Assembly: GCA_016893485.2 (NCBI GenBank)
Contig: JAFEKX020000001.1
Location: 7,581,501 to 7,645,500, forward strand
Length of the DNA: 64,000 bases
Direction: 5' to 3'
From: Streptomyces sp. P3
GTDB taxonomy: Bacteria; Actinomycetota; Actinomycetes; Streptomycetales; Streptomycetaceae
Shown: piece by piece, positions 535 to 18,146 of the stretch
Numbering within the stretch: the first letter of the stretch is position 1
Layout: each line of letters starts with the position of its first letter
Notes under the pieces: generated by a model
Told to the model about the DNA's origin: nothing
Databases searched by the model: none
The model's input: only the letters and a program-made list of their open reading frames with translations
Translations under genes and position numbers: made by a program

Positions 535-1239
535 TCGTGCAGCCCGCACTCGGTCTTGCCGCGGCCCGCCCAGCGGCCGGGCGCGCGTCCTCGCCCTCCA
601 GCACCCGGCGGGTGCAGGGCGCGCAGCCGACGGACGCGTAGCCGTCCATCAGCAACGGGTTGGTGAGAACGCCGTGTTCGGCGACGTAGGCGTCCACGTC
701 GTCCTGGGTCCAGCGGGCGATGGGGAGACCTTGACCTTCTGCCGCTTCTCGTCCCAGCCGACGACCGGGGTGTTCGCCCGGGTCGGGGACTCGTCACGGC
801 GCAGTCCGGTCGCCCAGGCCGCGTACTCGGTCAGGCCCTGCTCCAGCGGCTGGACCTTGCGCAGCTTGCAGCACAAGTCCGGGTCGCGGCCGTGCAGTTG
901 AGGGCCGTACTCGGCGTCCTGCTCGGCGACGGTCCGGCGCGGGGTGAGCGTGATGACGTTGACGTCCATCACGGCCTCGACCGCGTCACGGGTGCCGATG
1001 GTCTCGGGGAAGTGGTAGCCGGTGTCGAGGAACACCACGTCGACGCCGGGCATCGCGCGGGAGGCGAGATGGGCGACCACCGCGTCCTCCATCGAGGAGG
1101 TCACACAGAACTGCTTGCCGAAGGTCGCGACCGCCCACTGGAGGATCTCCAGCGCGGAGGCGTCCTCCAGGTCGCGGCCCGCCTGCTCGGCCAGGGCTTT
1201 CAAGTCGTCGGTGGGGCGCGCTTCCTGAGTCGTCGTCAT
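531..1239 (-). CDS. cysH: Phosphoadenylyl-sulfate (or adenylyl-sulfate) reductase, frameshifted in this assembly
   Basis: This thioredoxin-like-fold enzyme reduces PAPS or APS to sulfite. The sequence shows the PP-loop region CVTSSMEDAVVAHL near residue 45, the DTGYHFPET motif, and two cysteine pairs (CCKLRK and CAPC) plus the C-terminal ECGLHE. The paired cysteines suggest the iron-sulfur APS-reductase type rather than the E. coli PAPS type. Two single-base losses break the frame: near 720, where a run of five C is expected, and near 580. Correcting both gives one continuous protein of about 236 residues. The ATG at 1239 overlaps the stop of the zinc-ribbon protein, and the cysH stop overlaps the cysC start. 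Confidence 0.9.
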
Positions 1240-1414
1240 ATCTCGTCTCCCCTGCGTCGGTCTGCCGAAGGCCCCGGGCGAGGAGCCCGAGGAACTTCAG
1301 CTGAAAGGCCCGATTGCATGCCGCGCATTCCCATGCGCCATGGCCCTGCTCGCTGGGGCGCAGGTCCTCGTCGCCGCAGTAGGGGCAGTAGAAGGGGGCG
1401 GCCCGCTCGCTCAT
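1236..1414 (-). CDS. Zinc-ribbon microprotein between cysI and cysH
   Basis: This is a small protein of about 59 residues with CPYC and CAAC pairs, i.e. a four-cysteine zinc ribbon, followed by a hydrophobic and basic tail (RAFQLKFLGLLARGL). A similarly placed small protein is conserved in Streptomyces cys operons; its biochemical role is not known to me. The frame runs into cysH unless one G is restored near 1250. With that base the protein ends GGDEI and its TGA overlaps the cysH ATG, as in the other couplings of this operon. A role in handling the iron-sulfur or siroheme reductase, or in control of the operon, is only inference. Confidence 0.75.
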
Positions 1415-1445
1415 GACCCCTCCTTTCGCTGTCGTCCGCCGCCGC

Positions 1446-3142
1446 TCACGACAGTGCCTCCTCGGAGGCGCGGGTGGCCCAGGCGGCGAAGCGTTCGCCG
1501 TCCTCGCGCTCCTCCTGGAACCGGGTGAGGACCCGCTCGACGTAATCGGGCAGTTCCTCCGAAGTGACCTTCAGGCCACGGACCTTGCGGCCGAAGCCGG
1601 CCTCCAGACCGAGCGCGCCGCCGAGGTGCACCTGGAAGCCCTCGACCTGCTCACCCTGGTCGTTGAGGACCAACTGGCCCTTGAGACCGATGTCCGCGAC
1701 CTGGATACGGGCGCAGGCGTTCGGGCAGCCGTTGATGTTGATGGTGATCGGCTCGTCGAACTCCGGGATGCGGCGCTCGAGTTCGTCGATGAGCGTGATG
1801 CCGCGCTGCTTGGTCTCGACGATCGCGAGCTTGCAGTACTCGATGCCGGTGCAGGCCATCGTGCCGCGCCGGAAGGGGGAGGGCTTCGCGGTGAGGCCGA
1901 GCGCTTCGAGGCCCTCGACCAGCGACTCGATCTGCCCCTCCTCGACATCGAGCACGATCATCTTCTGCTCGACCGTCGTACGCAGCCGGCCGGAGCCGTG
2001 CGCCTGGGCCAGGTCGGCGATCTTCGTGAGCGTGGTGCCGTCGACACGGCCGACGCGCGGGGCGAAACCGACGTAGAACAGGCCGTCCTGCTGGCGGTGG
2101 ACGCCGACGTGGTCGCGCCAGCGGGCGACCGGCTGGTCCGGGGCCGGGCCGTCGACGAGCTTGCGCCCCAGATAGTCGTCCTCCAGGATCCGGCGGAATT
2201 TCTCGACGCCCCAGTCGGCGACCAGGAACTTCAGGCGGGCGCGGGTGCGCAGCCGCCGGTAGCCGTGGTCGCGGAAGATCGAGATGACGCCCTCGTAGAC
2301 GTCCGGGACCTCGTCCAACGGCACCCAGGCGCCGAGGCGTTGGCCGATCTTCGGGTTGGTGGAGAGGCCGCCGCCGACCCAGACGTCGAAGCCGGGGCCG
2401 TGCTCGGGGTGGTGCACGCCGACGAAGGCGATGTCGTTGATCTCGTGCGCCACGTCGAGGAGCGGCGAGCCGGAGATCGCGGACTTGAACTTGCGGGGCA
2501 GGTTCGAGAAGTCCTTGTTGCCGATGATCCGGCGGTGGATCTCGTCGATCGCCGGGGTGCCGTCGATGATCTCGTCCTCGGCGATACCGGCCACGGGCGA
2601 GCCGAGGATCACGCGGGGCGTGTCACCGCAGGCCTCGGTGGTGGAGAGACCGACCGCCTCCAGGCGGTTCCAGATCTCGGGCACGTCCTCGATGCGGATC
2701 CAGTGGTACTGCACGTTCTGCCGGTCGGTGAGGTCGGCCGTGCCGCGCGCGAACTCCTGCGAGATCTCGCCGATCACCCGGAGCTGCTCCGTGGTCAGCC
2801 GGCCGCCGTCGATGCGGACGCGCAGCATGAAGTACTTGTCGTCCAGCTCCTCCGGCTCCAGGATCGCGGTCTTGCCGCCGTCGATCCCGGGCTTGCGCTG
2901 GGTGTACAGCCCCCACCAGCGCATCCGGCCGCGCAGGTCGTTCGGGTCGATCGAGTCGAACCCGCGCTTGAGTAGATCGTCTCAATGCGTGTCCGCACAT
3001 TGAGACCGTCGTCGTCCTTCTTGAACTGCTCGTTGCCGTTGAGCGGGGTGAAGTGCCCGGCTGCCCACTGACCTTCACCGCGGTGACGGCTCACCTTGCG
3101 GCAGGGCGCTGCGGCTGCAGGGTTCTCAGGGGTGGCGGCCAT
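1446..3142 (-). CDS. cysI: Ferredoxin-dependent sulfite/nitrite reductase, siroheme type
   Basis: This protein reduces sulfite to sulfide with six electrons, using siroheme coupled to a 4Fe-4S cluster. The cluster cysteines are visible as CTGIEYC and GCPNAC in the last third, and the two duplicated ferrite-reductase-like halves are present. The true start is the ATG at 3142 (MAATPENP); a single missing base near 2973 separates the first 57 residues from the rest. Corrected length is about 566 residues, normal for the actinobacterial family. The gene leads the cys operon and lies downstream of a conserved leader peptide. Nitrite reductase is the alternative family assignment, but the cysH and cysC neighbours favour sulfite. 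Confidence 0.92.
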
Positions 3143-3271
3143 GGTTCTACGTCCTCCGGGACAGGCGGGTGATCGGCTCTGACCTGCGCGTACGGGCGCA
3201 TGCGGGCATACGTGCGCATCATTGCGCAAGGTGAGGCAGATACGGGGGAATCCGGCGGTGCTGCGGCTCGG

Positions 3272-3355
3272 CTAGCCCGCCGGACAGATGGCGCTGGACA
3301 TGCGGCCGAGGTCGACGTGCCGCCGACTCACCAAGGCAATTCCAGTTCCGGACAT
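3272..3355 (-). CDS. 27-residue putative leader peptide upstream of cysI
   Basis: An ATG-started reading frame encodes a 27-residue peptide ending in TAG. It contains LVSRRHVDLGR in the middle and SSAICPAG at the C-terminus. This matches the small putative leader peptide type found in Streptomyces upstream of sulfur-metabolism genes. It lies 130 nt ahead of cysI on the same strand. The single cysteine close to the end suggests translation-coupled sensing of cysteine supply, but that mechanism is inferred. It is too short for ordinary gene finders and is the only coding signal I see in the roughly 340-nt gap between 3143 and 3482. Confidence 0.8.
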   Translation of the reverse strand: MSGTGIALVSRRHVDLGRMSSAICPAG

Positions 3356-3482
3356 GACGGAAGCGTGTCACGGCGTTCTGGACACAGTCCAGCTTCGTCC
3401 GTCATGCGGACACCCTGGTCCCGCTATGTGAGACAAGGGTGTCATCGGTCACAAGCCGCGCACGGCGTCTTGTCGGCGCAGG

Positions 3483-4053
3483 TCAGACAGGGTAGGGCCC
3501 CGGCCAGGGGCCCGGCGTGGGCGCCTGCCGCACCTCCTCGACCTGGGTGTCGAAGAGCTTGAAGCCCCGCCGCTGGTAGTTGTCCATCGCGTGCACCCCG
3601 TCCAGGCTGCAGGTATGCAGCCAGACCCGCTTGGTCGGGGTCAGGCCGGGCCAGCGGTCGGCGAGGTCCCAGGCGCGGGCGGCGCCGTAGGAGAGGAGGT
3701 GGCCGCCGAGACGGCGGCCGCGGAAGGCGGGGACCAGACCGAAGTAGACGATCTCGACGACGCCGTCGTCCTGCGGCTCCAGTTCCACGTACCCACCGGG
3801 CGTGCCCCGGTCGTACACGACCCAGGTCTCCACACCCGGCCGGTCCAGGTGCTCCCGCCACTCGCGAACGTCCAGTGCAGCCGGTCGATCCAGAGGATGT
3901 CCCCGCCCACGGACGCGTACAGATAGCGGCTGAACTCGGGGAGGGCACCTCGGAGCGGACGATCCGCACGTCCCCGTCCGGCGCGATGGCCGGGAGGAGG
4001 TCGCTCGGGTCGGTCTGCTCCAGGGACCAGGTGGTCACCGGCATGTTCGTCAT
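3483..4053 (-). CDS. GNAT-family acetyltransferase, frameshifted in this assembly
   Basis: The protein is a Gcn5-related N-acetyltransferase of about 190 residues; the substrate is unknown. The acetyl-CoA binding segment appears as LVPAFRGRRLGGHLL, followed by the usual beta-strand (VWLHTCSLDG) and NYQRRGF helix. The N-terminus (MTNMPVTTWSLE) and middle (GGDILWIDRLHW) sit in two other frames, joined by single-base losses near 3938 and 3865. A gene of this kind commonly follows the cys operon in Streptomyces. It is transcribed in the same direction as cysI but upstream of it, so it is probably a separate unit. Confidence 0.82.
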
Positions 4054-4098
4054 GCCCGTCAGGGAATCATCCGGCCCGGGGATCTGTCGATCAGGTGA

Positions 4099-5357
4099 TC
4101 ATCCGAGCGAGCTGTCGATCGAGTTCAGCGGCAGGGCGAACAGCATCCGCCCGGAGACCGACCAGACCTCGCCGGTCTCCTGCCAGTAGGAGAGGGAGTC
4201 GGTCTGCGCGCTCCAGCACCGGTGCGTGTCGTCGGCCCCGCACTCGGTGGCCTTCGCGTCGCCGGTGTCCTGGCGCCACAGCGAACCGCGCGCGTCGTCC
4301 TTCCCGGGCGCGCCGCCCACGTACCAGGCGGACCCGTGCGCGAGCACGCCCCTGTACCACCGGCCTTCGTCGCGTACGCCTCCTCGGGCACCGCGCGCCC
4401 CGCGGAGTCGGTGGCGAGCAGGCCCGGCCGCGCCGGGTCCTGGCTGAAGGGGTAGCGCCACAGCCGCTTCGCGCCGCTCGCGACCAGACTGTCCGGGACG
4501 CTGCTGCGGTCCAGCGAGAGACCCGTCGGCCGTACGGCCGCCGTGCCGCCGCTGAGCCGGTACGACCCGACGGCGGGCAGCACATACCGGTACCCGGCGG
4601 CCGACCAGCCCTCGCGCACCCGGCCGACCGCGCCGGCCGTCACCGTGGTCCGCTGGATGCGGTTCATGTCGTACACGTACAGCGCGTCGCGGGTCCCGCC
4701 GGTGGTGGTGACCAGGAGCTTGTCCTGGTACCAGACCATGCCGGAGATCTTGGAGACGAGCGCGTGATAGTCACGCCCGCCGTCGGTCGGTACAGCCAGG
4801 AGGGCCCAGGTGTAGGTGAGGCGGGCGGGGTCGTCGGCGTTCACGAAGGCGACCCGGGCCAGGCCGCGGGTGTTCGCGGTCCAGCCGGAGAGGATCACCC
4901 GGTTCGAGCCCCACCAGCCGTCCTCGTCGGCGTCGCCCGAGGTGGTCACCGAGCGTGGCGTCCACGCGGGGTCGGCCGCGTCGCCGCTGTCCCAGCAGTA
5001 CGCGTGCGTGGCCGCCGGTTCGACGGGCAGCGCGGACTTCTCGTCGGTCGTGCAGTCGGCGGCGTCGCGCAGGGTGTGGTCGGCGCTCTTGAGGACGGCG
5101 TCGACACCGACCGGCCGGCCCATCGCCGAGGCGAGCCGGTCCAGGGACCGCTGTGGCTCCAGACGCTCCCTCAGCTGCAACGCGCCCAGGTCGGAGGCCG
5201 AGGTGAGGGGCTTGAGCGCCCCGGGATCGGAACCGACCGTGGCCTGCGAGGCGCTGATCATCGTCGCCGCCGCGGTGAGGCCGAGCGCGGCCCCGGTCAG
5301 CACGGCGCGCAGCGCCCTGCCCCGCTTACGCCGGCGGTGTCGCCCACGTGCACTCAT
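4099..5357 (-). CDS. Secreted protein of unknown function
   Basis: The protein starts with a basic stretch (RGRHRRRKRGR) and a hydrophobic signal segment (AVLTGAALGLTAAATMISA), so it is exported. The mature part of about 390 residues is rich in WGSNR, YVYDMNR and GRDYHALVSK-type strands that suggest a beta-propeller or other repeat-beta fold. I do not recognise a catalytic motif. One base is missing near 4360; the corrected C-terminus is WYRGVLAHGSAWYVGG and onwards. It resembles conserved Streptomyces secreted proteins found next to sulfate operons. The 200 nt upstream (5358-5557) hold nothing I recognise. Confidence 0.75.
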
Positions 5358-5557
5358 AGTGTCCTCCCGAGGCGAGCCAACTGCGGCTGGTGATCCGTGC
5401 GTTGACCAGGGAGCAGGTGGGGTGGCCCGTAGAGGGATGCTACGGCAGTCATGGCCCCCGCATGGGTAAGACCCTGCAAATATGCGGAAGATGCCGCAGG
5501 ACGCGTCTTTTGCGCCACCTGTCCCCGGGAGCGCCACGACCCGCGTCTCCTTCTCCG

Positions 5558-6846
5558 CTACGGGACTTGGGCCGACGTCCGCCCCCTGGTCACCCCGGGT
5601 GCCGTCGAGTGCGGCAGCAGCCTGCGCGGGTCGTCCGGCAGCAGCACCTCCACCTCGGCGTCCTCGCGGAAGCGGTACGGGCGGTGCTCAAGGACCGCGC
5701 CGAGATAGCGCCGTACCCGGGAGAGTTCGGCACGCACCGTCACGGTGCGGCCCGGGTCGCCGAACATGTCCTCGGCGAGGTTCGCGGCGCTGCGGCCGGC
5801 GCGGTGCAGGGCCAGGAGGTAGAGCAACTCGGCGTGCCGCGGGCTCAGTTCGTGGGTCCAGGAGCCCGCGCTGCCGGACACCGTCACCGACCAGCGGCGC
5901 GGCAGCGCCAGGTCGAGCACGATCCGGGCGGCGCCCCCGCCACCGGATCGTCGTCGGCGCGGATCAACCAGCCCCCGGCCAGCGGCTCCAGCGAGCACAG
6001 CCCGAGCGAGGGCACCCAACGGCGGCCCTCCGAGGGCGCCTTGGGCAGCGCGATCCGCTTCACGTACGGCATGCCGGTGACCGCGGCGGTCCAGCCGTCC
6101 CGGTCCACCACCAGGGCCTGTCCACCGATCCGGGGCAGGATCGGCGCCGCCACCGCGCGCAGCCGCTCCAGCGAGGTCATGTGCAGTTCGCGCAGCCGGG
6201 CCTCGGCGAGCTTGGCCACCGAGTCGACCCAGGCGAGGGTCGCCGGATGCATGGTCTCCAGCGGGCCGCTGACATCGACGACGCCGATCAGCCGGCCGTC
6301 CCTCGGGTCGGTGATCGGGGCGCCCGCGCAGGTGAACGCGGCCAGCGCGTGCGAGAGATGCTCACCGGCGAACACCTGCACCGGCCGCCGTACGACCGCC
6401 GGGGTGCCCACGCCGTTGGTGCCGACGACGTCCTCGCGCCAGTCCGTGCCGACCTCGATGCCCACCTCGTCGGCCTTGCGCAGCACGGCCGCGCTGCCCT
6501 CCCGCCACAATGCGCGGCCCTCGTCGTCGGCAACCAGCACGATGTGGTGGGCGGCGTCCGCGACCGACACCAGCCCCTCGCGCAGCACCGGCAGGACATG
6601 CCGCAACGGGCTTGCGCCGCGCCGCCGTTCCACCTCCTCCAGGGAGAGCAGCCCGGTGCGCAGATCGTGGTCGGGGCGGGTCCCGCCGCGTAACGCGCGC
6701 TCCCAGGACTCCTCGATCACCGGGCGCGGCGGGGTGCGGGCGCGCTGTCCGGAGAGCGGGGTGTGCCGGGCGTCGCTGAGCATCCGGGCCGTCCGAGCCG
6801 CGTCGACATTGGTGCGCCACGTCCGGCCGGCCGGCGGGTTCGCCAT
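5558..6846 (-). CDS. GAF-domain transcriptional regulator with C-terminal DNA-binding domain
   Basis: The N-terminal two thirds carry an AcoR-like GAF sensory region (VIEESWERAL, GTDWREDVVGTNGVGT, CAGAPITDPRDGRLIGVVDV), as in activators of aldehyde and alcohol catabolism. The C-terminal part (LSPRHAELLYLLALHRAGRS, then a winged-helix-like segment with VRAELSRVRRYLG) is the form seen in actinobacterial GAF regulators without an AAA+ domain, so it would act with ordinary sigma factors. One base is missing near 5937. It lies on the same strand as, and downstream of, the acyl-CoA dehydrogenase gene, separated by a strong hairpin, so it is probably transcribed from its own promoter around 6850-6960. 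Confidence 0.8.
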
Positions 6847-6940
6847 GGGTCCTTCTCTCCGGTCCCGTATCGACTGTTGTTCTCATAGTGCCGCTCCGCG
6901 GTGACGGAGGGAGACAGTCCGGACACAGAAGCGGCCAAGT

Positions 6941-6960
6941 TGCAACCCTCTGCAACCCTG
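6941..6960. promoter_or_regulatory. Tandem 10-bp direct repeat upstream of the GAF regulator
   Basis: Two adjacent copies of TGCAACCCT, with period 10, sit about 95 bp ahead of the GAF-regulator ATG. One helical turn between half-sites is typical of an operator. Autoregulation by the GAF protein is an inference. Confidence 0.35.
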
Positions 6961-6998
6961 GTGAACGGTCGTACGGTGTCTGAAACTTGTCCCACGCT

Positions 6999-7036
6999 GC
7001 GAGGGTGGTGCCGTGTCGGCGCAGCACCACCCTCGC
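6999..7036 (-). terminator. Hairpin terminator after the acyl-CoA dehydrogenase gene
   Basis: A perfect 12-bp inverted repeat (GCGAGGGTGGTG and its complement) with a 14-nt loop lies 18-55 nt beyond the stop of the acyl-CoA dehydrogenase gene. There is no T-tract, as is usual for high-GC actinobacteria. Confidence 0.6.
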
Positions 7037-7053
7037 GTTGTGCCGGTGTTGCC

Positions 7054-8686
7054 TCAGACCGTCGGCCGGGCCCGCTCGGCGATCGACGTGAGGTCCAGGC
7101 TCGGCGGCAGGGTGCCGAACGCGGTGCCCCAGTCGCCGCCCAGCCGGGACGCGCAGAAGGCGTCGGCGACCTCGGGCGGCGCGTACTGGACGAGCAACGC
7201 CCCCTGGAGCACGAGCGCCATCCGCTCGACCAGGCGCCGGGCGCGGCCCTCGATGCCGTCCAGGTCGGCGAACTCGGCGAGCAGGTTCTTCATCGCCCCG
7301 TCCAGCCGGTGATCGGCGCCGCGCACCCGGCCGACCTCGATCAGGAACGCGTTCAGCGCCTGCGGTTCACGCCGCAACGCCCTGAGCACGTCGAGGGCCT
7401 GGATGTTGCCCGCGCCCTCCCAGATCGAGTTGAGCGGTGACTCCCGTACCAGGCGCGGCAGTCCGGACTCCTCCACATAGCCGTTGCCGCCCAGGCACTC
7501 GGCCGCCTCGACCGTGACCGGTGAACAGCGCTTCGTCACCCAGTACTTGGCGGCCGGGACCGCCAACCGCAGAAACGCCGCCTCCTGTTCGCCGCCGTCG
7601 TCGTAGGCCGCCGCGAGCCGCAGTCCGAGGGCGGTGGCCGCCTCCGACTCCAGGGCCAGGTCGGCCAGGACGTTGCGCATCAGCGGCTTGTCCATGAGCG
7701 TGCCGCCGAACGCCTCGCGGTGGGCGGTGTGGTGGACCGCCTGCGCGACGGCCTGCCGCATCAGCCCGGCCGAGCCGAGCACACAGTCGAGCCGGGTCGC
7801 CGCGACCATCCCGATGATGGTGCGCACCCCGGCCCCCTCGTCGCCGACCCGGCGCGCCCAGGTGCCGTCGAACTCGACCTCGGCGGAGGCGTTCGACCGG
7901 TTGCCCAGCTTGTCCTTGAGGCGCTGGAGGAGGAACACGTTGCGGGTGCCGTCGGCCAGCACGCGGGGGACCAGGAAGCAGGTGAGGCCGCCCGGTGCCT
8001 GCGCGAGCACGAGGAAGCCGTCGGACATGGGCGCCGAGCAGAACCACTTGTGGCCGGTCAGTTCGTACGTCCCGTCCTCGGCGAGCGGGCGCGCCTCCGT
8101 GGCGTTGGCGCGGACGTCGCTGCCGCCCTGCTTCTCCGTCATGCCCATCCCGAAGACCGCACCGGCCTTGAGATGGGCGGGCCGCAGCTCACGGTCGTAG
8201 ACCGTCGAGGTCAGCCGTGGCTCCCACTCGGCGGCGAGCGCGGGGTCGGCGCGCAGGGCGGGCACGGCCGCGTGGGTCATCGACAGAGGGCAGCAGTTGC
8301 CCGCCTCGACCTGGGTCCACACCAGGAACCCGGCGGCCCGGCGGACATGGCCTGCCGGGCGGTTCCAGGCGGCGGTCAGGCCGGCGGACACGCCCTTGCC
8401 GAGCAGCCGGTGCCAGGCCGGATGGAACTCGACCTCGTCGGTCCGGTGGCCGTAGCGGTCGTGGGTGCGCAGGACCGGGGGTTCTCGTTGGCCTGCGCAC
8501 CCCACTCCTGGAGCTGGGCCGAACCGGCGGCGCGGCCCAGCGCGGAGAGGTCGTCCCGGACCTCGTCCAGCAGTCCGGGCGGTGTGTGCCGTTCGACCGC
8601 CTCCGTGAGGACGCGGTCGGCGGTGAAGACGTCGTAGCCGACCAGTGGGGAGTCTGGTTCGTCACGGTGTGGGTGGTGCGTGCCAT
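7054..8686 (-). CDS. AidB-type acyl-CoA dehydrogenase family protein
   Basis: The protein of about 545 residues belongs to the acyl-CoA dehydrogenase superfamily, in the AidB/adaptive-alkylation-response branch. It shows GMGMTEKQGGSDVRAN (FAD and substrate region), TGHKWFCSAPMSDGFLVLAQ, and the C-terminal ECLGGNGYVEESGLPRLVRE and SIWEGAGNIQALD typical of AidB. AidB in E. coli binds DNA and is thought to protect against alkylation; the true substrate is unknown. The start is the ATG at 8686. Single-base losses near 8652 and 8482 place the N-terminus in other frames. A 14-bp direct repeat lies just upstream, so it seems to have its own promoter rather than belonging to the sbnAB operon. Confidence 0.88.
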
Positions 8687-8719
8687 GGCTGGAACCTACC
8701 CGGGGGACGGCGGTGGTCT

Positions 8720-8756
8720 GGATCTCCACCCTGCGGAGCGCGGGATCTCCACCCTG
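8720..8756. promoter_or_regulatory. 14-bp perfect direct repeat upstream of the AidB-type gene
   Basis: GGATCTCCACCCTG occurs twice with a start-to-start distance of 23 bp, i.e. close to two helical turns, 34-70 nt before the AidB-type ATG. This is a strong operator candidate; the binding protein is unknown. Confidence 0.5.
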
Positions 8757-8776
8757 ACACGCCGTCGACCCCGACG

Positions 8777-9760
8777 TCAGGCCGAGGGGGACATGGCCGC
8801 CAGCATCGCGGTCTCGGGCGCCGCCGCCTCCTCTTCCTCCAGCCAGCCGGTGCGGTACACGGTGTCCAGATAGCGTTCGCCGAGGTCGGGTGCGATCGCC
8901 ACCGCCGTCGTGCCGTGCCGTCCGTTGCGCGCGAGCCACTGCTCGGCGCCCCTGACGACCGTGCCGGTGGACCCGCCGAACAGGAAGCCCCGCGCGGCCA
9001 GTCGGCGGCAGGTCTGCACGGTGTCCGGCTCCTCGACATGGATCACGTCGTCGATGTACGACGTGTCGAGGAACGGCGGTGCCACGCTGGTGCCGAGCCC
9101 CGGGATCATCCGCGGCCCGGCCTCCCCGCCGAACGTGACCGAACCGGCCGCGTCCACGGCGACGATCCGCACCCGGCGCCGCCACTCCCAGAACCAGCGC
9201 GCACAGCCCATCAGCGTCCCGGTCGTCCCGGCGCCGACGAACAGCACGTCGAGCTGCGGGAACCGGCCGGCGATGGCGGGTGCCGTGGTGCGGTAGTGCG
9301 CCCGCCAATTCCCCTGGTTCGTGTACTGGTTGAGCCAGACGTACCGCTCGTCGGACGCGCACAGCGCCCGCACGTACCCGATCCTGGCGCCCAGGAAGCC
9401 GCCGTGCGTGTCGGGCTGGTCGATGACGTGGACCCGGCTGCCGAGCGCCTCCATCAGCTGCACCGTCGGCACGTTGCAGCGTCTGTCGGTGACGCACAGG
9501 AACCCGTAACCGCGGCTCGCGGCGAGGACGCTGAGCGCCACGCCCAGATTCCCGGACGACGACTCGACGAGCACCGAGCCGGGCCGCAGGATCCCGGCCC
9601 GCTCGGCGGCGTCCACCATCTCGGTGGCGGCCTTGAGTTTGACCGAGCCGGCGAAGTTGAACCCCTCGCACTTCAGATAGAGCGGCAGTTCCAGCGCGGC
9701 CCGCAGGTCGACGTAGAGGTCGTCCTCGTTGAACTCCGCGGGATCGGAAATAACAGCCAT
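8777..9760 (-). CDS. sbnA: SbnA-like PLP enzyme, N-(2-amino-2-carboxyethyl)-L-glutamate synthase
   Basis: The protein of 327 residues is a cysteine-synthase-fold PLP enzyme. The PLP lysine is visible in NFAGSVKLKAA, the substrate loop in ESSSGNLG, and the phosphate-binding glycines in VGAGTTGTLMG. The motif pattern fits SbnA, which joins O-phospho-L-serine and L-glutamate to make N-(1-amino-1-carboxyl-2-ethyl)-glutamate, the first step to L-2,3-diaminopropionate in staphyloferrin B biosynthesis. The frame is intact. The gap to sbnB is 32 nt, so the two are almost certainly co-transcribed. The SbnB partner makes plain cysteine synthase unlikely. Confidence 0.88.
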   Translation of the reverse strand: MAVISDPAEFNEDDLYVDLRAALELPLYLKCEGFNFAGSVKLKAATEMVDAAERAGILRPGSVLVESSSGNLGVALSVLAASRGYGFLCVTDRRCNVPTVQLMEALGSRVHVIDQPDTHGGFLGARIGYVRALCASDERYVWLNQYTNQGNWRAHYRTTAPAIAGRFPQLDVLFVGAGTTGTLMGCARWFWEWRRRVRIVAVDAAGSVTFGGEAGPRMIPGLGTSVAPPFLDTSYIDDVIHVEEPDTVQTCRRLAARGFLFGGSTGTVVRGAEQWLARNGRHGTTAVAIAPDLGERYLDTVYRTGWLEEEEAAAPETAMLAAMSPSA

Positions 9761-9792
9761 GTTCTCCCCCTAGTGGTGCGCCACGATCGCCG

Positions 9793-10817
9793 TCAGCCGT
9801 ACCGGCGCAGCTCGTGGAAGAACCCGTCGACGACGTGGAGTTCACCCCGTCGCACCACTTCGTCGTGGACGAACCTGCCGACCGCGAGATCGAGCACCCC
9901 GAGCCCGAAGGGCGAGAACACCACGGTCCGGTCGGTCGGTACGGTCACCCGCCCGGTCAGTACGTCGTCCAGTGTGCCGTCGATGAACTCCCGCCCCCGG
10001 TGGCCTGTTCGGCCAGATGCGGAGACGTGTCGGCCTTCAGACAGTGCTCGACGTCGTCCACGAAGTTCGCGGACGCGAGCAGGATCGCCGGGTCGAGATC
10101 CCGCAACGACACGTGCAGCACCAGCGGATGGTGGTCGAACCAGGCCGGATCGTGCACGTGCGGGCTGCCCGCGATCGTCGCGAACACCAGCAGGTCGCCG
10201 GCGCGCACGAGACCTTCGAGCTTGTCGTGCACGGTGACCCGCCCGGGGACTTTGACCGCTCCAGATAGCCCCGGAACCCCTCCGCGCTCTCCGCGGACAG
10301 GTCGTACACGCCGGTCTCCTCGAACTCCCAGCCGGTGGCGCGGAGATGGGTGTGGATGTAGCGGGCGATCAGACCGGTCCCCACGAACCCGACCCGCGAA
10401 GGCCGTGTCCGTCCCTGGCTGAGCTTGTCGGCGGCGAGCGCCGCCGAACTCGCCGTACGGGTCGCGCTGATCACCGAACTCTCCAGGCAGGCATACGGAT
10501 AGCCGGTGTCCGGGTCGTTGAGGATCAGCACCGCCGAGGCCCTGGGCAGTCCCGACCCGGTGTTCCCGGGAAGCTGGAGATCCACTTCAGCCCGTCCACC
10601 CGCGACGGCCCCCGAGCGACGCGGGCAGGGCGATGATCCGGGACGACGGACGGTCCGGGAAGCGCAGGAAGTACGACGGCGGGTTCACCGAGTCGCCCGC
10701 GCCGTGCAGCCGGTACGTGGCCTCCACGAGGGCGCCGATCTCCGACTCCCGCCCGGCCAGGGCCTGTTGGACCTGCTCGCCGCTGATGACCGAGAAGGTG
10801 GGTGTCTCGATGCTCAT
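9793..10817 (-). CDS. sbnB: SbnB-like dehydrogenase (ornithine cyclodeaminase family), frameshifted in this assembly
   Basis: SbnB oxidises the SbnA product with NAD+ and releases L-2,3-diaminopropionate and 2-oxoglutarate. Visible features are NPPSYFLRFPD (substrate loop), the Rossmann segment VGFVGTGLIARYIH, and HVSLRDLDPAILLASANFVDD, all typical of the ornithine cyclodeaminase/SbnB family. The start ATG at 10817 overlaps the dioxygenase stop (ATGA). About four single-base losses (near 10600, 10575, 10250 and 9990) split the gene; the corrected protein is about 340 residues, normal for SbnB, and ends FFHELRRYG. Confidence 0.86.
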
Positions 10818-11816
10818 GCCGCCCTCCCGCCGGCCGACGGGGCGAGGTCGCCGGGCCGCACCGGATCGCCGAGCCCGGCGAGCACCTCGCGCGGCCCCTC
10901 GAACGGCTCCCTGCCGTGCGCGGTACGGATGTTGTCCACCAGCAGCAGATCCCCGAACGCCACGGCTCACGCCGCATATGACGGTCGTAGGTCTCGTTGA
11001 CGGCCGTCACGATGCCCGCGTCGATCGGATCGCCGTTCCCGAAGCGGGTGTTGAAGGGGAGCGCGTCGGCGCCGTAGACGTCGACGAGGTACTCGCGGAC
11101 CTCGGGTTCCATCGTCCACTCGTTCAGGAACGCGACCTGGTTGAACCAGCAGCGGCGGCCGGTGACCGGGTGGCGGAGCACGGCGGCGCGGCGCTGGCGG
11201 GTGCGGAGCGAGCCGTCGTGCTGCCAGGCGAACTCGATGCCCTGGGCCCGGCAGTAGCGCTCGACGACGGCCCGGTCGTCGGTGCCGAAGGCCTCGGCGA
11301 CCGAGGCCCCGATCTCCTCGTGGTACGTCCGCGTCAGCATCCAGCCCTCGCGCTCGAACCGCTCCACCAGCGGCGCGGGCAGTGACTGCAGGACGGCCTC
11401 GGCGTCGGCGACCGGGGTCGCGCCGCCCTCCGTCGGCGCCTCCAGACAGGCGAAGAGCAGCAGCCCCGGGAACTCCAGGGCGTAGCTCAACTCGTGGTGC
11501 TGGCACATCGGTTGGTCGGTCGGCCACTTCGTGGCGGAGTACACGCCCTCGGTGTACGTACGGCGGGGCGCGAACGGCTCCCGGTCGGCCATCAGGAGTT
11601 CGCGAGCCGCCGGAAGACGGCCTCGGCGTCCGCCGGGTCGGCGAGGCCGAGCCCGCGGACCAGGACACAGCCGTGCTCGGCGACGACGGCCCGCAGCGCG
11701 TCACGGTGTCCGGCGGCCCAGCCGACCGGGTCCCCGCCGGCGTCGGTGTGCAGCAGCGGCGGACTGTCCGGGCCCAGGGCGACGGAGTGGAGCAGCGTCG
11801 CGGAAGAGAGCGACAT
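10814..11816 (-). CDS. SyrP/TauD-like Fe(II)/2-oxoglutarate dioxygenase
   Basis: The protein of about 335 residues belongs to the TauD/TfdA superfamily. The metal motif is H-x-E (PMCQHHELSY) rather than H-x-D, with the distal histidine in RTAHGREPF and the 2-oxoglutarate arginine nearby. H-x-E is the form seen in SyrP-like enzymes that hydroxylate carrier-bound amino acids at the beta carbon. The start is the ATG at 11816, chosen for its GAAAGGA ribosome site; an ATG at 11849 is in frame but has no such site. Single-base losses near 11595 and 10965 split the gene. It lies between the adenylation gene and sbnB, so beta-hydroxylation of a tethered amino acid is the likely job. Confidence 0.8.
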
Positions 11817-11871
11817 CTCGGTGTTCCTTTCGGTGGTGCTGTCGATCATTCGGCCGGGGGTGCGGCTGGGC

Positions 11872-13957
11872 TCAGGAGGAGACCGGCGGGTCCAGCAGTC
11901 CGGCCAGGTCCGCGAGGACCGGGTGGCGGGTGACGTCCTTGAGGCTGATCGCCCGGTCGAGGGCGACCGCCAGCTTCACCGCGGCCAGCGAGGTGCCGCC
12001 GCGGTCGAAGAAGTGGTCCTGTCGGCCGATCCGGTCGGCCGGGATACCGAGGACCACCGCCCAGGCCGCCGCGAGCCGCCGCTCGGCGGGCGTGTCCGGC
12101 CCGTCCCCACGGCGTCCAGGTCACCGGCGAGCGCGGTGAGCGTCCTGCGGTCGGTCTTGCCGTTGGCGGTCAGCGGCAGCGACGCCCGCCAGTGCACGAC
12201 CGACGGCACCATGTACGCGGGCAGCGACTCCGCGAGCCGCTCCCGCACGGCGCCGGCCTCCACGGGCCGCGGGCCGGTGCAGAACGCCACCAGCTGCGTC
12301 CCGCGCACGACGACCACCGCGCCGTCCCGCACCCCGTCCACCCGCAGCAGCGCGTTCTCGATCTCGCCGATCTCGACGCGGAAACCGCGGATCTTCACCT
12401 GGCTGTCCCGGCGCCCCAGGAACTCCAGCTTCCCGTCAGGACGCCAGCGCCCGTGGTCCCCGCTGCGGTACAGCCGCTCACCGGGCCGGTACGGGTCCTC
12501 GGTGAACGCCGCCTTCGTCCGCTCGGGGTCGTTGACGTACCCCCGGCCCACGCACACACCGGAGAACACGATCTCGCCGGGCGCGCCCAGCGGCACGGGC
12601 ACCAGGTCCTCGTCGACGACGTACACCCGCACATTGGAGACGGGCCGGCCGAGCGGGACGCGGTCGCCGTCCGGTGCCCGGTCCATCACCTCGTGGTTGG
12701 TGTCGTCCGAAGTCTCCGTCAGGCCATAGGCGTTGACGAGCCGCACCCCGGGCCGCGCGGTGAACCAGCGGTCCACCAGCTCCTTCTTCACGGCCTCCCC
12801 GGTGACCGACACACAGCGCAGATCGGGAGTTCACGCGGCTGCCGCTCCAACTCGGCGAGCACGGCCTCCAGATACGACGGCACGACCTGCAGGACGTTCA
12901 CCCGCCCCGCCTCGACCGTGTCGGCGAACCGCGCCACGTCCAGGATCACGTCCTGCTCCACCAGCAGCGTCCGCCCGCCCACGAGCGGCGCGCAGACCAG
13001 CTGCCACAGCGAGATGTCGAAGCACTGCGGCGCGGTCTGCGCCACCACCTGCCCGGCGCCGATCCCCAGGTCGTCGAGCTTGGCGAACACATGGTTGAGG
13101 AAACCCGCGTGCTCGCACATCGCGCCCTTGGGCTCACCGGTGGAGCCCGACGTGAAGTAGATGTAGGCGAGTTGGCCCGGCGTGACCGTGATGCCGAGGT
13201 CACCGTCCGAGTGGCCCTCGGCGTACACCTCGTCGACGTAGAGCGTCCGGTCGGACGGGTCGCCGAGTGAGCCGTCGCTGCCGCGCTCGGTCAACACCAG
13301 GGCGCACCCGGCACGTTGGAGTACCCGCGCCACCCGCTCGGCCGGGAAGTGCGGCTCGACGGGCAGGTACACCCCGCCCGCCTTGAACACGGCGAGGACG
13401 GCGGCCATCCAGTCGAGGTTCCGCTCCAGCACCACGGCGACGACGCCCTCGCGGGTCAGTCCCCGGGAGAGCAGGCCCCGACTCAGCTGGTTCGCGCGGG
13501 AGTTGAGCTCCCGGTACGTCCACTGCCGGCCGCCCTGCACCGCGGCGACCGCGTCCGGGCACACCTCCACCATGTCCTCGAACAACTCGTGCACCCGCCG
13601 GTCCGGCAGTTCGCGCCGTGGACCCGCCAACTCGTCCAGCTGGAAGCGGAGTTCGGCGTCCGACAGCAGCACCGGCCGGCCCGGCTCGGCGAGCACGGCC
13701 AGGTGGTAGCCCGCGATGCGGGCGGCGGCCTCGGCGTCGAGGACATCGGTGCGGTACCGCAGCCGCAGCGTGCGGCCGGTGACGCTCACCTGCAACGCCG
13801 GGTCGTTCTCGGCGGGTTCACCCGACAGCGCGCCGAGGACCTTGGCGTGGGCGGCTTTCAGTGCGGCGGGCTCGGCCGACACCCCGTCGGGCAGGGGCAC
13901 TTCGTGCTCCGCCACACCGGGCACCGGAGCGAGCGTCCACCGCGGAATGGTCTCCAT
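11872..13957 (-). CDS. Stand-alone NRPS adenylation-carrier (A-PCP) protein
   Basis: The protein activates an amino acid as its adenylate and loads it on its own carrier domain. Residues 1-130 resemble the tail of a condensation domain. The adenylation core motifs are YFTSGSTGEPKG (A3), NAYGLTET (A5), YRSGDHGRW (A7), VKIRGFRVEIGEIE (A8) and LTANGKTDRR (A10). The carrier domain near the C-terminus has FFDRGGTSLAAVKL with the phosphopantetheine serine. By eye against GrsA the specificity residues read D-I-W-Q-S-T-A-D-D-K; the two aspartates suit a basic side chain. Two bases are missing, near 12826 and 12118. The start ATG at 13957 follows GGGGGAAAG. There is no full condensation or thioesterase domain. 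Confidence 0.88.
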
Positions 13958-13999
13958 CGTTCTCTTTCCCCCTGGTTCCTTCCCCTGCGGCACGAGCCG

Positions 14000-16453
14000 T
14001 CAGGGAGTCATGTGCTGTCCGGCGCGCCGTGGCGCCACCGCCGGATTCCCGCCCCACCGGGACCGCGCGGGCATCTCCTCGCCCTTCATCAGGAAGGAGT
14101 CGGCGGCCAGTTCGGCCCCGTCACCCATCGAGACGCCGTAGTGGACGAGCGCCCCCACCCCGAGGGTGCAGCCGGCCCCGATGGTGATCATTTCGGACTT
14201 GAAGGTGCCGTCCTCCTGCGAGTGCGACTGCACCTTGGTGTGCGCCGAGAGCGTGCAGTCGTCGCCGATCGCGGTCAGCGTGCGCTCGGTGATGTAGGCG
14301 CCGTCGTCGAAGACCCGGCGTCCCATCCGGACTCCCAGCAGCCGCCAGACCAGGTTCTTGAACGGCGTGCCGTTGAACACCTGGATGTAGGTGTCCGGCA
14401 CCTTCCACAGCCGCTCGTGCCACCAGAAGTACGGGTCGTAGATCGAGCACAACTTCGGCTCCAGCGGCCGGAATCCGCCGACCAGCCGCTCCACCAGCAC
14501 GTAGTACCCGGCGGTGAAGCCGAGCCCGAGCATCAGGGACGCGCCGATCAGCAGGCCGCCGCCGACGCCCTCACCGCCGTACAGGTCGACGGCGGCGAAG
14601 CCGAGCACGGTGAGGACGAACCAGTGCAGCCAGCGCACGAACAGGTACAGGCCCATCGAGCGCAGGTTGGATCGGTTCTTCGCGGCCAGCCGGCGCTTCA
14701 GCTCGTCGCCCTCGCGGAGATGGTCGAAGCGGCTGTCGCGCTCCACCGAGCGCGGGATCTCGAAGCACGGCGAGCCCAACAGGCCGACGCCCTCACGGAG
14801 TTCGCCGTCGATCGGCACCATCACCTTGGTGGCGAGCAGGCAGTTGTCGCCGGTGCGACCGCCCGCGGGGTAGGCGATGTTGTTGCCCAGGAAGTTGCGC
14901 GGCCCGATCGTGGCGCGCGAGAGGCGGAACGACGTGCTGGAGAAGTCCGCGTTGACGATCGACAGCCCGTCCGCGACCATCGTGCCGCTTCCGACCGTGG
15001 CCAGATACGGCGTCTCGTGCTGCACCTCCGTACCGAAGTTGGAGCCGGTCTGCTCCACCACGCCGAGGTCGTAGCCGATCGCCTTCAGGTAGCCGACGAC
15101 GTAGGAGCTGTCCCCGCACAGCCACTTGAAGAACTTCAGGTTGGTCATCCGCGCCACCGCGCGCTGCACCGAGTAGTGGAAGCCGTACAGCGGATACACC
15201 CGGTCCGGCCGCAGCAGCGGACGCAGCAGCCTCGGCACCAGGGACACGGCGGCGAAGCCGAGCACGATGAAGGCGACGAACGCGACGAGCGACAGGGCGA
15301 GCGCCTCGCCGTAGAAGCGGGCGGAGTTGAGGTCTCGGGTGTCCGGATCCAGCAGGTGGTCGAGGGCCGGGACGACGGTCAGCACCAGGTAGGTGCCGCC
15401 GACCGCGAGCGGGAGGTAGACCAGCAGCATCTGCAGGATCGCGCCCAGGCCGTAGCCGAAGCGGCGCCAGGTCGAGCACTTCGCGTGCGGGACGCGGACG
15501 TAGTCGACGTCCGTGGGCTGCGCGGGGGAGCCGTGCACGCGCTGCCCCGCCGGGACGTGCGCGTCGTCGTACAGGGCGGAGGAGTGGCCGAGTTGGGACC
15601 CGTCGCCCATGACCGTGCCGATGTCGAGCACGGTCTTCTCGCCGAGGTAGACCTCGCTGCCGAGGGTGATCCGGCCGGTGCGGATGCGGCCGGCGCGTGC
15701 CTGGTAGCAGAGGAAGAAGGTGTCCTTGCGGATGACCGTGCCGTCCCCGATGGTCAGCAGGTCGGTGCAGACCGGGACGGAGTGGGACAGGATCGTGACG
15801 CCCTTGCCGATGCGGGCGCCGAGGGCGCGCAGGTAGAGGACGTAGACCGGGTTGCCGGCGAACAGGATCATCGGGTTGGCGTGCAGCAGGGCCTTGACCG
15901 TCCAGAACCGGACGTAGGCGAAGCCCCAGACCGGGAACTCGGTCTCCTTCCAGCGGCCCACGAGAATCCACTTGGCCACCACCGGCACCGTGCACACACC
16001 GACGAACACCGCGCCGCCGAATATCGCGGAGCGCAGATAGACCTGCACCACGCCGTTACCCGAGGAAACCCATTCGTAGCCCTGCCCCGTGACGATCCCG
16101 GCGAGCACGCAATACAGCGCGAAAACCAGGAACTGAAGCACCCCGCACAGCAGATAGCGGCCCGTGCTCCCGGCCGGCGGCGGCTCCGCCTGAACCGGTG
16201 CGACGGGCTCGGGTGTGTCGGCGAGTGCGGCCGCCAGGCTGCGGATCGTGGGATATCCGTAGACGTCGCGCATCGACACCGACGGCAGATCCTCGCGCTT
16301 TCTGACCCGGGCGCAGAAGTGAGCCATGACCAACGAGTTGGCGCCCAGGTCGTCGAAGAAGTGGCTGTCGAGGGGTATCGCTTCCTTGCGTACGACACCG
16401 GCCAGGACCTCCGCGAGGACGGTCTCGGTCACGGTGCCGGGTTTTCCCACCAC
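14000..16453 (-). CDS. Carrier domain fused to membrane-bound left-handed beta-helix synthetase (Pls C-terminal-like)
   Basis: This 817-residue protein begins with a carrier domain (FFDDLGANSLVMAHF, phosphopantetheine serine about residue 40). About six hydrophobic segments then alternate with three soluble domains of hexapeptide repeats (e.g. IGKGVTILSHSVPVCTDLLT; TVGSGTMVADGLSIVNAD; IGDDCTLSAHTKVQSH). Six membrane segments around three tandem acetyltransferase-like domains is the layout of the C-terminal half of epsilon-poly-L-lysine synthetase Pls and the Pls/PosA family. In Pls the adenylation domain is on the same chain; here it is a separate gene 42 nt downstream. The frame is intact. 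The start is GTG at 16453 behind GGGAG. It leads the operon. Polymerising or amide-forming activity is inferred from the family. Confidence 0.85.
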   Translation of the reverse strand: MVGKPGTVTETVLAEVLAGVVRKEAIPLDSHFFDDLGANSLVMAHFCARVRKREDLPSVSMRDVYGYPTIRSLAAALADTPEPVAPVQAEPPPAGSTGRYLLCGVLQFLVFALYCVLAGIVTGQGYEWVSSGNGVVQVYLRSAIFGGAVFVGVCTVPVVAKWILVGRWKETEFPVWGFAYVRFWTVKALLHANPMILFAGNPVYVLYLRALGARIGKGVTILSHSVPVCTDLLTIGDGTVIRKDTFFLCYQARAGRIRTGRITLGSEVYLGEKTVLDIGTVMGDGSQLGHSSALYDDAHVPAGQRVHGSPAQPTDVDYVRVPHAKCSTWRRFGYGLGAILQMLLVYLPLAVGGTYLVLTVVPALDHLLDPDTRDLNSARFYGEALALSLVAFVAFIVLGFAAVSLVPRLLRPLLRPDRVYPLYGFHYSVQRAVARMTNLKFFKWLCGDSSYVVGYLKAIGYDLGVVEQTGSNFGTEVQHETPYLATVGSGTMVADGLSIVNADFSSTSFRLSRATIGPRNFLGNNIAYPAGGRTGDNCLLATKVMVPIDGELREGVGLLGSPCFEIPRSVERDSRFDHLREGDELKRRLAAKNRSNLRSMGLYLFVRWLHWFVLTVLGFAAVDLYGGEGVGGGLLIGASLMLGLGFTAGYYVLVERLVGGFRPLEPKLCSIYDPYFWWHERLWKVPDTYIQVFNGTPFKNLVWRLLGVRMGRRVFDDGAYITERTLTAIGDDCTLSAHTKVQSHSQEDGTFKSEMITIGAGCTLGVGALVHYGVSMGDGAELAADSFLMKGEEMPARSRWGGNPAVAPRRAGQHMTP

Positions 16454-16578
16454 GTGGCTCCCTGATACTGATCGTCGCCTTCGAATTGCCAGAGGCGAAT
16501 ACGGCGGAGTCGCGCCCGAAGTTCACGGCGGGGAATGTCGAAAGGCACGCGAAACGGGTGGGATGAATGGGAATTCAT
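16429..16578 (-). CDS. Possible 49-residue upstream ORF overlapping the synthetase start
   Basis: An ATG-started frame in the 5' leader ends with TGA inside the first codons of the synthetase gene, overlapping it by 25 nt. The C-terminal half (LWQFEGDDQYQGATWWENP) looks protein-like, but third-position GC is only about 60 percent and no clear ribosome site is seen. It could be a coupling leader peptide or chance. I do not recognise a family. Confidence 0.25.
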   Translation of the reverse strand: MNSHSSHPFRVPFDIPRRELRARLRRIRLWQFEGDDQYQGATWWENPAP

Positions 16579-16702
16579 GAGAATGGAGTTCCGCATTGTG
16601 TACAGAGTTGCCATGTGTTCGAGACCCCGGTCATGGGTCTATGTGATTCCCCGAGTCGTGTGCGCTGACGTCGTCCCAACGCGCGCAACGAATGCAGTCC
16701 GG

Positions 16703-16732
16703 ATTATTTCTGGACATTCTGGAACGGGTCAA
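16703..16732 (-). promoter_or_regulatory. Sigma-70-type promoter of the diaminopropionate-synthetase operon
   Basis: On the minus strand TTGACC (16727-16732) and AATAAT (16703-16708) are separated by 18 bp, a near-consensus housekeeping promoter and unusual for this GC content. The spacer holds a direct repeat of TTCTGGA (two copies with a 9-bp period, plus-strand reading), a possible operator. Transcription would start about 240 nt before the GTG at 16453. Apart from this and the small ORF, the 524-nt gap 16454-16977 shows nothing I recognise. Confidence 0.55.
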
Positions 16733-16977
16733 GGCTGTTTCGGTCAATGGCGCTTTTTCGTCTTCGCCCGCCGAACTGCGGGTCAACAGGAATTGACGGC
16801 CGAAGTCCCCACCGGGACACTCTCCGGAACAAGCGTGAAAGTATCGAATGCGGCTTCGAATGCCCGGGGGCCTTTTTCAGCCAGCGCGAGCATGACACGA
16901 CGGCCCCCGAAGACGTCCCGCCCGGCCGACGCCCCCAGGGGATGAGTGCATCCCGGCGCGACGGATACCTTTAGGGC

Positions 16978-18146
16978 GTGCAGTCAGCAAGTGAAACCCC
17001 GAGCGGCCCACCAGCCGGTTCCACCGGGCGCGTGCCCTCTACCGGAACGTCTCCAAGCGCAGGACCGCCTGGCTGCTGGTCAAGGACACCGTCAACTCCT
17101 GCATGGAGTACCGCATCCTGGGCCTCGCGGCCGAGGCCGCGTTCTTCACGCTGCTGTCCGTCCCGCCGCTCCTGCTGAGCCTCATCGGTCTGCTCGGCTA
17201 CGTCGACAGCTGGACCGGCGCCGACAGCATCGCCGGCCTGGAGAACAACATCCTCGAGGCGTCCCGCACGGTCCTGTCCGACAAGGGCGTGCACGAGATC
17301 GCCCAGCCGATCCTGCACGACGTGATGAAGGGCGGCCGCCCCGACGTCATCTCCATCGGCTTCCTGTTGCCCTGTGGTCGGGCTCCCGCGCGGTCAACGT
17401 CTTCATCGACACGATCACCGTCATGTACGGCCTCGACGGCGTGCGCGGCATCGTCAAGACCCGGATCGTGTCCTTCGCCCTGTTCGTCGCGGCCCTGCTC
17501 ATCGGCTCGGTCGCGCTGCCGCTCATGGTCGCCGGGCCGGACGCCGTGGTGAACGTGGTGCCGTGGTCCGAGACGGTCGTACAGGTCCTGTACTGGCCGG
17601 TCGTCATCGTCCTGTCCGTCGTCTTCCTGACGACGCTGTACCACGTGTCCGTCCCCGTCCGCTCCCCGTGGATCGAGGACGTCCCCGGCGCGTTGGTCGC
17701 CCTCGCGATGTGGGTCCTCGGCAGCTATCTACTGCGCATCTACCTCACCAGCACGGTCGAGGGCCCCACGATCTACGGCTCCCTCGCCGCGCCCGTCGCC
17801 GTCCTCCTGTGGATCGGCGTCTCCGCGTTCGCCGTGCTCGTCGGCGCCGCCGTCAACGCGGCCATCGACCGCGTCTGGCCCGCCGCCGCCACCGCCGCGG
17901 CCCGCGCCGCCAACGAACGCCGCCAGGAGGAGCAGGTCGCCGAGTACGTCGCCCGCATGGCCGCGGTCCGCGCCCGGGACGGCGAGGACGACGACGACCC
18001 CGACGACTCCTACATGCCCTCCGAGTTCCCCGAACGCTGGTCCCGCTTCCTCCCCGGAGGACGTCACGTCCCGCCTCCGCACCCACGCAAAGAACACCCA
18101 CACCCACAAGGGCACCGGCGACTCTTCGCAGTCACCGGACAAGTGA
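16978..18146 (+). CDS. YihY/BrkB-family inner-membrane protein
   Basis: The protein of about 390 residues has six predicted membrane segments (e.g. EAAFFTLLSVPPLLLSLIGLLG; LFVAALLIGSVALPLMVAG; VVIVLSVVFLTTLYHVSVP; ALVALAMWVLGSYLLRIYL). This matches the YihY/BrkB family, whose function is not settled; it was once mislabelled RNase BN. The C-terminal cytoplasmic tail is long and acidic (RDGEDDDDPDDSY). The start is GTG at 16978 with a TACCTT box 7 nt upstream, suggesting a leaderless message. Three base losses near 16993, 17362 and 18054 are corrected; the true C-terminus is GDSSQSPDK. Confidence 0.85.

Follow-up and report, generated by a model that had tools for sequence, protein, structure and literature searches.

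The synthetases Pls and PosA end in a membrane domain with three beta-helices that belongs to the TIGR02353 family (PMC10522769), and PDAPs of Streptomyces albulus PD-1 uses 2,3-diaminopropionate (Dap) as monomer and has a Pls-type terminal domain in place of condensation (C) and thioesterase (TE) domains, its strain coding for cysteine-synthase and ornithine-cyclodeaminase homologues for Dap (PMC4668381). Papers are cited here by PMC number, and statements taken from them refer to the passages of each that were available. A comb-like Dap polymer, poly[beta-(Dap-Dap)], is known from a Streptomyces strain (cited in PMC9606270 and PMC10522769). Described here is a five-gene cluster in a stretch of 64,000 nucleotides from Streptomyces sp. 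P3 (GCA_016893485.2, contig JAFEKX020000001.1, positions 7,581,501 to 7,645,500), called the window throughout. It combines two genes for Dap synthesis with a separate adenylation-peptidyl carrier protein (A-PCP) gene, a dioxygenase gene and a gene for a carrier protein fused to a Pls-type terminal domain (Pls_C), related to the enzyme behind epsilon-poly-lysine, which is used to preserve food. We give an even chance to the proposal that the cluster makes an oligo- or polyamide of (oxidised) L-Dap by the steps set out below. Coordinates in the window, strand and description are as follows.

14000..16453, minus strand: PCP-Pls_C protein, 817 aa, intact; carrier and TIGR02353 membrane/hexapeptide-repeat polymerisation domain; A domain not in cis.
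11872..13993, minus strand: A-PCP protein, in three frames (pieces 13960-12824, 12827-12087 and 12108-11875).
10814..11816, minus strand: TauD/TfdA-type dioxygenase with HxE and distal H, in three frames; PF02668.
9793..10817, minus strand: sbnB (L-2,3-diaminopropionate biosynthesis), in five pieces in different frames.
8777..9760, minus strand: sbnA (L-2,3-diaminopropionate biosynthesis), intact; TIGR03945 378.8 bits, cut-off 349.95.
8687..16976, no strand assigned: inferred unit, bounded by the genes for an AidB-type acyl-CoA dehydrogenase and a BrkB-type protein; its outer limits are approximate.

Transcription runs from the Pls-type gene through the A-PCP, dioxygenase and sbnB genes to sbnA, with short or overlapping gaps, and the five compact same-strand genes of an earlier note on this DNA were thus found as described. 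The PCP-Pls_C protein scores far above the TIGR02353 cut-off (791.8 versus 423.1 bits, 695 of 695 positions), also matches PF00550 and hexapeptide repeats, and has its A domain encoded in the neighbouring gene, which bears out a split Pls-type synthetase beside Dap-synthesis genes. The naming of SbnA and SbnB likewise holds: SbnA of the window passes its cut-off, and the intact SbnB of the related locus L001 (Streptomyces sp. NRRL F-525) scores 402.7 bits against TIGR03944 (cut-off 326.9), a score that belongs to L001, sbnB of the window being broken. The H-x-E dioxygenase is a TauD-family protein by its match to PF02668, with its ligands conserved in relatives.

In the proposed pathway, L-Dap would be supplied by SbnA and SbnB; the single A domain would adenylate it and load two carriers, the PCP in its own chain (in cis) and that of the Pls-type protein (in trans); the dioxygenase would oxidise Dap bound to the A-PCP carrier; and the Pls_C membrane domain would join the units through the Dap amine and probably release or export the chain, standing in for C and TE domains. 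Charging of a second carrier in trans by one Dap-specific A domain is plausible given the precedent of CmnA-A1 and CmnI in capreomycin biosynthesis (PMC12400406), and joining of Dap by a Pls-type enzyme given that of PDAPs (PMC4668381). Judged from sequence features, Dap is very probably the substrate, chain formation by Pls_C is likely, and oxidation on the carrier is moderately likely. The position and type of the oxidation and the chain length can be offered as a guess. Oxidation of free Dap at the beta-carbon yields a carbinolamine, which loses ammonia or water and is unstable unless N-acylated. The beta-hydroxylated Dap of the earlier note is therefore doubtful and not our first choice; C-alpha hydroxylation, desaturation, or oxidation after acylation of the beta-amine is more likely than a free beta-hydroxy-Dap.

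The A pocket reads DIWQSTADDK in 80 of 80 Pls-linked A domains (the code of the window being read from orthologues), at positions that we take to correspond to the gramicidin S synthetase numbering. Each of the two carriers keeps its serine in all rows that have a residue at that position (79 of 79). Upstream of the A core, the motif HHxxxD[GA] occurs in none of 94 A-protein open reading frames (ORFs), in keeping with the earlier statement that no classical C domain is present; a truncated C-domain match below cut-off, starting from position 181-192 of 456, was obtained in four of five A proteins scanned, not in that of L001. A C-terminal TE is carried by 50 of the 94 A ORFs, a few of the rest being cut by contig ends. 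Since so many relatives have one, the absence of a TE, which the earlier note had stressed and which is true of the window's nearest relatives, is a trait of that lineage and not of the wider family. With its truncated C match and the TE of many relatives, the A gene resembles an eroded terminal module of an ordinary nonribosomal peptide synthetase (NRPS).

The strongest evidence for the substrate and for the oxygenase's partner comes from outside the cluster. Within the cluster, among the 80 relatives (78 rows aligned), the H, E and distal H of the dioxygenase are kept wherever the residue is present (76-78 rows). For dioxygenases away from Pls genes, 20 of 30 places, among the matches listed, were fetched. 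An A-PCP gene of the same type adjoins the dioxygenase gene or lies one gene off in 19 of these 20, the exception (L148) being part of a set split within genome G012. Twelve loci (L149-L152, L154, L156, L157, L159, L161, L163-L165) hold sbnB and sbnA with no Pls gene in the stretch, and L155 holds just a piece of sbnB; L147 is a relocated piece of a second Pls set in genome G230, and L146 does have a Pls gene. In five further loci (L142, L153, L158, L160, L162), an SbnA-like pyridoxal phosphate enzyme occurs with an ATP-grasp part and an argininosuccinate-lyase-like protein that replaces SbnB, joined in four of the five by a kinase-like protein (named from the annotation of L142; no NCBIfam match); from the family names, we infer that this alternative set makes Dap. 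The A pocket in L142, L147 and L149-L165 is again DIWQSTADDK, except for DIWQATCDDK in L142 and L162. Two partly different supply sets thus meet the same A-PCP and dioxygenase pair, which argues for Dap as substrate and for an oxygenase that works with the A-PCP carrier. The scanned neighbours of seven Pls-free loci include NRPS modules, an A-ketoreductase-PCP protein, regulators and transporters.

Fused ORFs were also seen: Pls, A and dioxygenase parts in one ORF of 2327 aa (L116), and A and dioxygenase parts in L130, L152, L162 and L163; some of these may be sequencing artefacts. In the A tree, the alternative-supply loci stand in two places and the Pls label needs two changes (both trees were built on 53 rows, for which 18 of the 80 loci were chosen by hand; the A tree excludes the A domains of single-chain enzymes). 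Outside the cluster, the dioxygenase goes with a Dap-type A-PCP gene rather than with a Pls gene, although not always (L140, L141); this company weakens the interpretation given in the earlier note. We advance, tentatively and at somewhat less than even chance, that Dap supply, Dap-type A-PCP and dioxygenase form a portable cassette that yields a carrier-bound oxidised Dap block, is plugged into several assembly lines, and in about one third of Streptomyces feeds a trans-loaded Pls-type polymerase, which would give a class of oxidised Dap oligoamides that is very common and has gone unrecognised. Separately observed were the NRPS clusters of L142 (Kitasatospora sp. NBC_00039 plasmid, 1-16177) and L162, which contain the Dap-type A-PCP, the dioxygenase and the alternative supply genes, that of L142 also an asnB-like gene and a racemase gene; their product may include an oxidised Dap unit.

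A scan of genome contigs gave 176 relatives of the locus, of which 80 were kept. The complete set in the same order and on the same strand was found in 74 of them, Kutzneria and Prauserella (L051, L078) included, which excludes a chance arrangement; of the remaining six, five are cut off at a contig edge and L080 is without sbnB. Frequency was counted in 295 genomes drawn from the genus of the window, which the named relatives indicate to be Streptomyces. At least 108 of these genomes have a Pls_C relative (E 1e-100 or better), at no fewer than 135 places, and a dioxygenase gene lies within 9 kb at no fewer than 112 of the 135, in at least 98 genomes; at least 12 genomes have more than one pair. 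These are lower bounds, as three Pls candidates and seven dioxygenase candidates per genome were scored; a fourth Pls gene of genome G273, missed by the Pls scan, turned up in L146. The pairing count used 142 dioxygenase places among the matches listed, with eight at 44-49% identity left out. The set is thus common and not rare, which weakens the reading of the earlier note. Twenty weaker Pls places comprise 13 with the complete set (in four, sbnA lies on the opposite side and strand), five single-chain enzymes, one with three of the five genes (L119) and one with Pls alone (L125). In the order of the window, a dioxygenase relative at E 1e-90 was present in 73 of 197 genomes, all in one of six genera; in the phylum, one at E 1e-100 was present in 7 of 396 genomes, six of which (among them the genome of the window) belong to the window's genus. 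Two sets were seen split over two distant chromosomal loci with their parts kept in the genome (L119 and L148 in G012; L125 and L147 in G230), and G230 holds another Pls-dioxygenase pair besides.

The edges of the unit are fixed by genomes in which the flanking genes are neighbours. In nine of nine chosen Pls-free genomes (strong AidB-type match and no Pls match; the duplicate stretch L174 left out), the BrkB-type and AidB-type genes lie about 17-761 bp apart. At occupied sites, the distance is 7.9-10.7 kb (26 relatives with both flanks found), and the stretch between the flanks in the window is about 8.3 kb. L001 has the five genes and no further called gene between the two flanks. Some longer occupied sites hold an extra gene, such as an acyltransferase-like gene in L007, and a version with a TE stands at the same site in L059. 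The BrkB-type gene appears in 30 of the 79 loci with a called Pls gene; it is missing from the stretch in the other 49, a few of which are from contig ends. Inside the unit so delimited there is no exporter gene, as the earlier note had said.

The AidB-type and GAF genes, next downstream in the window, were considered as further members and rejected: with 291 of 295 genomes having it, the AidB-type gene does not belong to the cluster, and in the nine Pls-free genomes it adjoins the BrkB-type gene. Membership was weighed since Dap is acted on elsewhere by enzymes resembling flavin dehydrogenases, as by the tuberactinomycin desaturase. A putative action of this kind is described for AlaD/AlnG of alanosine biosynthesis (PMC11705231).

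Three of the five genes are broken in the window, which the earlier note had overlooked; the Pls-type and sbnA genes are intact. The PCP-Pls_C protein is 95% identical to that of L001 in one frame. The A-PCP pieces, which match AMP-binding, are 92-100% identical to the intact 696-aa protein of L001; the dioxygenase pieces 88-96% (first piece 88%; intact L001 protein, PF02668 139.8 bits); the sbnB pieces 95-99%, except one piece of 23 residues at 74%. Breaks of this kind also occur in the two flanking genes, AidB-type and BrkB-type, each of which is in three frames. As the flanking genes are broken alike, close relatives are intact and the genome of the window (G000) scored 74.7% complete, the frameshifts in the A-PCP, dioxygenase and sbnB genes are probably sequencing errors of the assembly. 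At 16977-18143 and 5561-8686 of the window, the BrkB-type, AidB-type and GAF genes are each spread over two or three frames; given these split flanking frames, gene models of this window should be treated with care. The same genome has a second Pls-type gene (G000:C1:2304821-2308539) with A-domain matches just upstream, apparently frameshifted too.

Several results weigh against the proposed pathway. The 23 of 135 Pls places with no dioxygenase gene nearby comprise five single-chain enzymes, three contig-edge fragments and 15 others (two examined). The five single-chain relatives examined are 52-53% identical in Pls_C and have the code DFECLSVVTK, unlike DIWQSTADDK, and PCP-Pls_C genes with no A, dioxygenase or sbn gene in the stretch occur on two plasmids (L143 and L144). 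The dioxygenase has weak matches to solved structures, the best being At3g21360 and 9yut. A structure predicted for it reached a mean pLDDT of 47.8. In the dioxygenase tree the Pls label needs four changes, versus two in the A tree, because L149-L151, L147 and L148 lie among Pls-linked ones, and the settings are less cleanly separated. A Streptomyces plasmid (L141) has a 55% dioxygenase relative with other A domains (best match 38%, code DVWHVSYVDK), and L140 of Pseudonocardia has a Pls-type gene and a dioxygenase gene, but in its 19-kb stretch neither sbnAB nor a separate A gene is annotated. The TE of many A proteins fits hydrolytic release or editing equally. Finally, no published Dap A-domain code was found for comparison, a literature search with one 2,4-diaminobutyrate (Dab) code having returned no papers.

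An unoxidised product, that is plain or comb-like poly-Dap such as the branched poly[beta-(Dap-Dap)], in which the two carriers would serve backbone and side unit and the dioxygenase would modify an end unit only or be accessory, is rather unlikely in our view; a polymer of this kind exists, and a dipeptide as repeating unit would agree with two separate carriers, but most Pls places keep the dioxygenase gene nearby, and several loci have the enzyme fused to the A protein, which fits a step of the main path. In a second alternative, Pls_C makes one or a few amide bonds, and either the TE or the membrane domain frees a small product, be it a dimer of Dap or an amino acid derived from Dap by oxidation. 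The frequency of the TE among A proteins favours this, as does the cassette that stands Pls-free beside other NRPS genes, whose own output may therefore be a carrier-bound building block; yet the nearest relatives of the window lack the TE, those enzymes described so far that share the terminal domain (Pls, PDAPs, PosA) make polymers (PMC4668381, PMC10522769), and we regard a small product as unlikely. A siderophore or other metallophore is very improbable. In its favour, Dap serves as a building block of siderophores, the CdTB01 plasmid carries a Pls_C gene without partners amid genes for cation efflux and CopC, and pTC1 has a Pls-type gene of full length near mntH. Against it, the window has no iron-box match within 3 mismatches of an actinobacterial consensus, and a unit of the five named genes only leaves no receptor or exporter. 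The (oxidised) Dap oligo- or polyamide is the product that we prefer.

Further observations concern the outlying Pls-type genes. L140 is on a Pseudonocardia alni plasmid; its Pls-type protein (4460-9981) has a seemingly incomplete A domain without the C-terminal part and three tandem carriers, and cytochrome-biogenesis and thioredoxin-type genes lie near the Pls-type and dioxygenase genes. L143 is a plasmid of Streptomyces sp. CdTB01, where the cation-efflux genes around Pls_C are of the cation diffusion facilitator type, and L144 is a plasmid of S. mirabilis P16B-1; a metal-stress role of Pls_C products is possible.

If the proposed pathway is right, about one third of the sampled Streptomyces have a unit for a so far overlooked chain of Dap, cationic and probably oxidised. 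The unit would include a Pls-type enzyme charged in trans, of which no example was found in the literature passages, and the joining and release of units by the Pls membrane domain would become testable with separate proteins. It would also include an oxygenase for Dap with a chemistry that is not obvious.

An A-PCP partner with a TauD-type oxygenase is familiar from the SyrP-type hydroxylases and from DdaC/DdaD of dapdiamide biosynthesis, the latter also with Dap genes; to our knowledge, these systems are without Pls_C. Sulfazecin biosynthesis (SulM/SulO) resembles the present case in its carrier-bound Dap and its nonheme iron oxygenase, but is a multimodular NRPS pathway in which SulO acts after release of the beta-lactam; this is the one oxygenated Dap unit documented, with the oxygen added after release (PMC11298585). 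CmnI is similar as an A-less carrier protein loaded in trans, but it has a C domain, and capreomycin is a nonribosomal peptide antibiotic and no homopolymer (PMC12400406). In S. scabies grown with potato, the overproduced proteins include an SbnB homologue encoded near an sbnA homologue and an NRPS gene (PMC11479980). Neither the five-gene set nor a split layout with an oxygenase was found described among the titles and starts of abstracts listed or in the passages, most papers not having been examined in full; the passages concerned for the five-gene set are those of PMC9606270, PMC8506220, PMC10522769, PMC12400406, PMC11298585, PMC11705231, PMC11479980, PMC12298158, PMC11162802 and PMC4668381. 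The genes of the comb-like polymer could turn out to be this same set. PDAPs differs from the present system as a single chain (4338 bp) with A and PCP domains, with its Dap genes not close by and with no dioxygenase mentioned in the passages of PMC4668381; Pls and PosA differ by the N-terminal A domain in the same chain and by their lysine or ornithine substrate (PMC10522769). Set beside this Pls/PosA layout (NAPAA-type, for non-alpha poly-amino acid), the window has the terminal domain and has A and PCP in a chain of their own. We judge the combination, which we have not seen described, to be a variant of the Pls and poly-Dap kind assembled from known component families.

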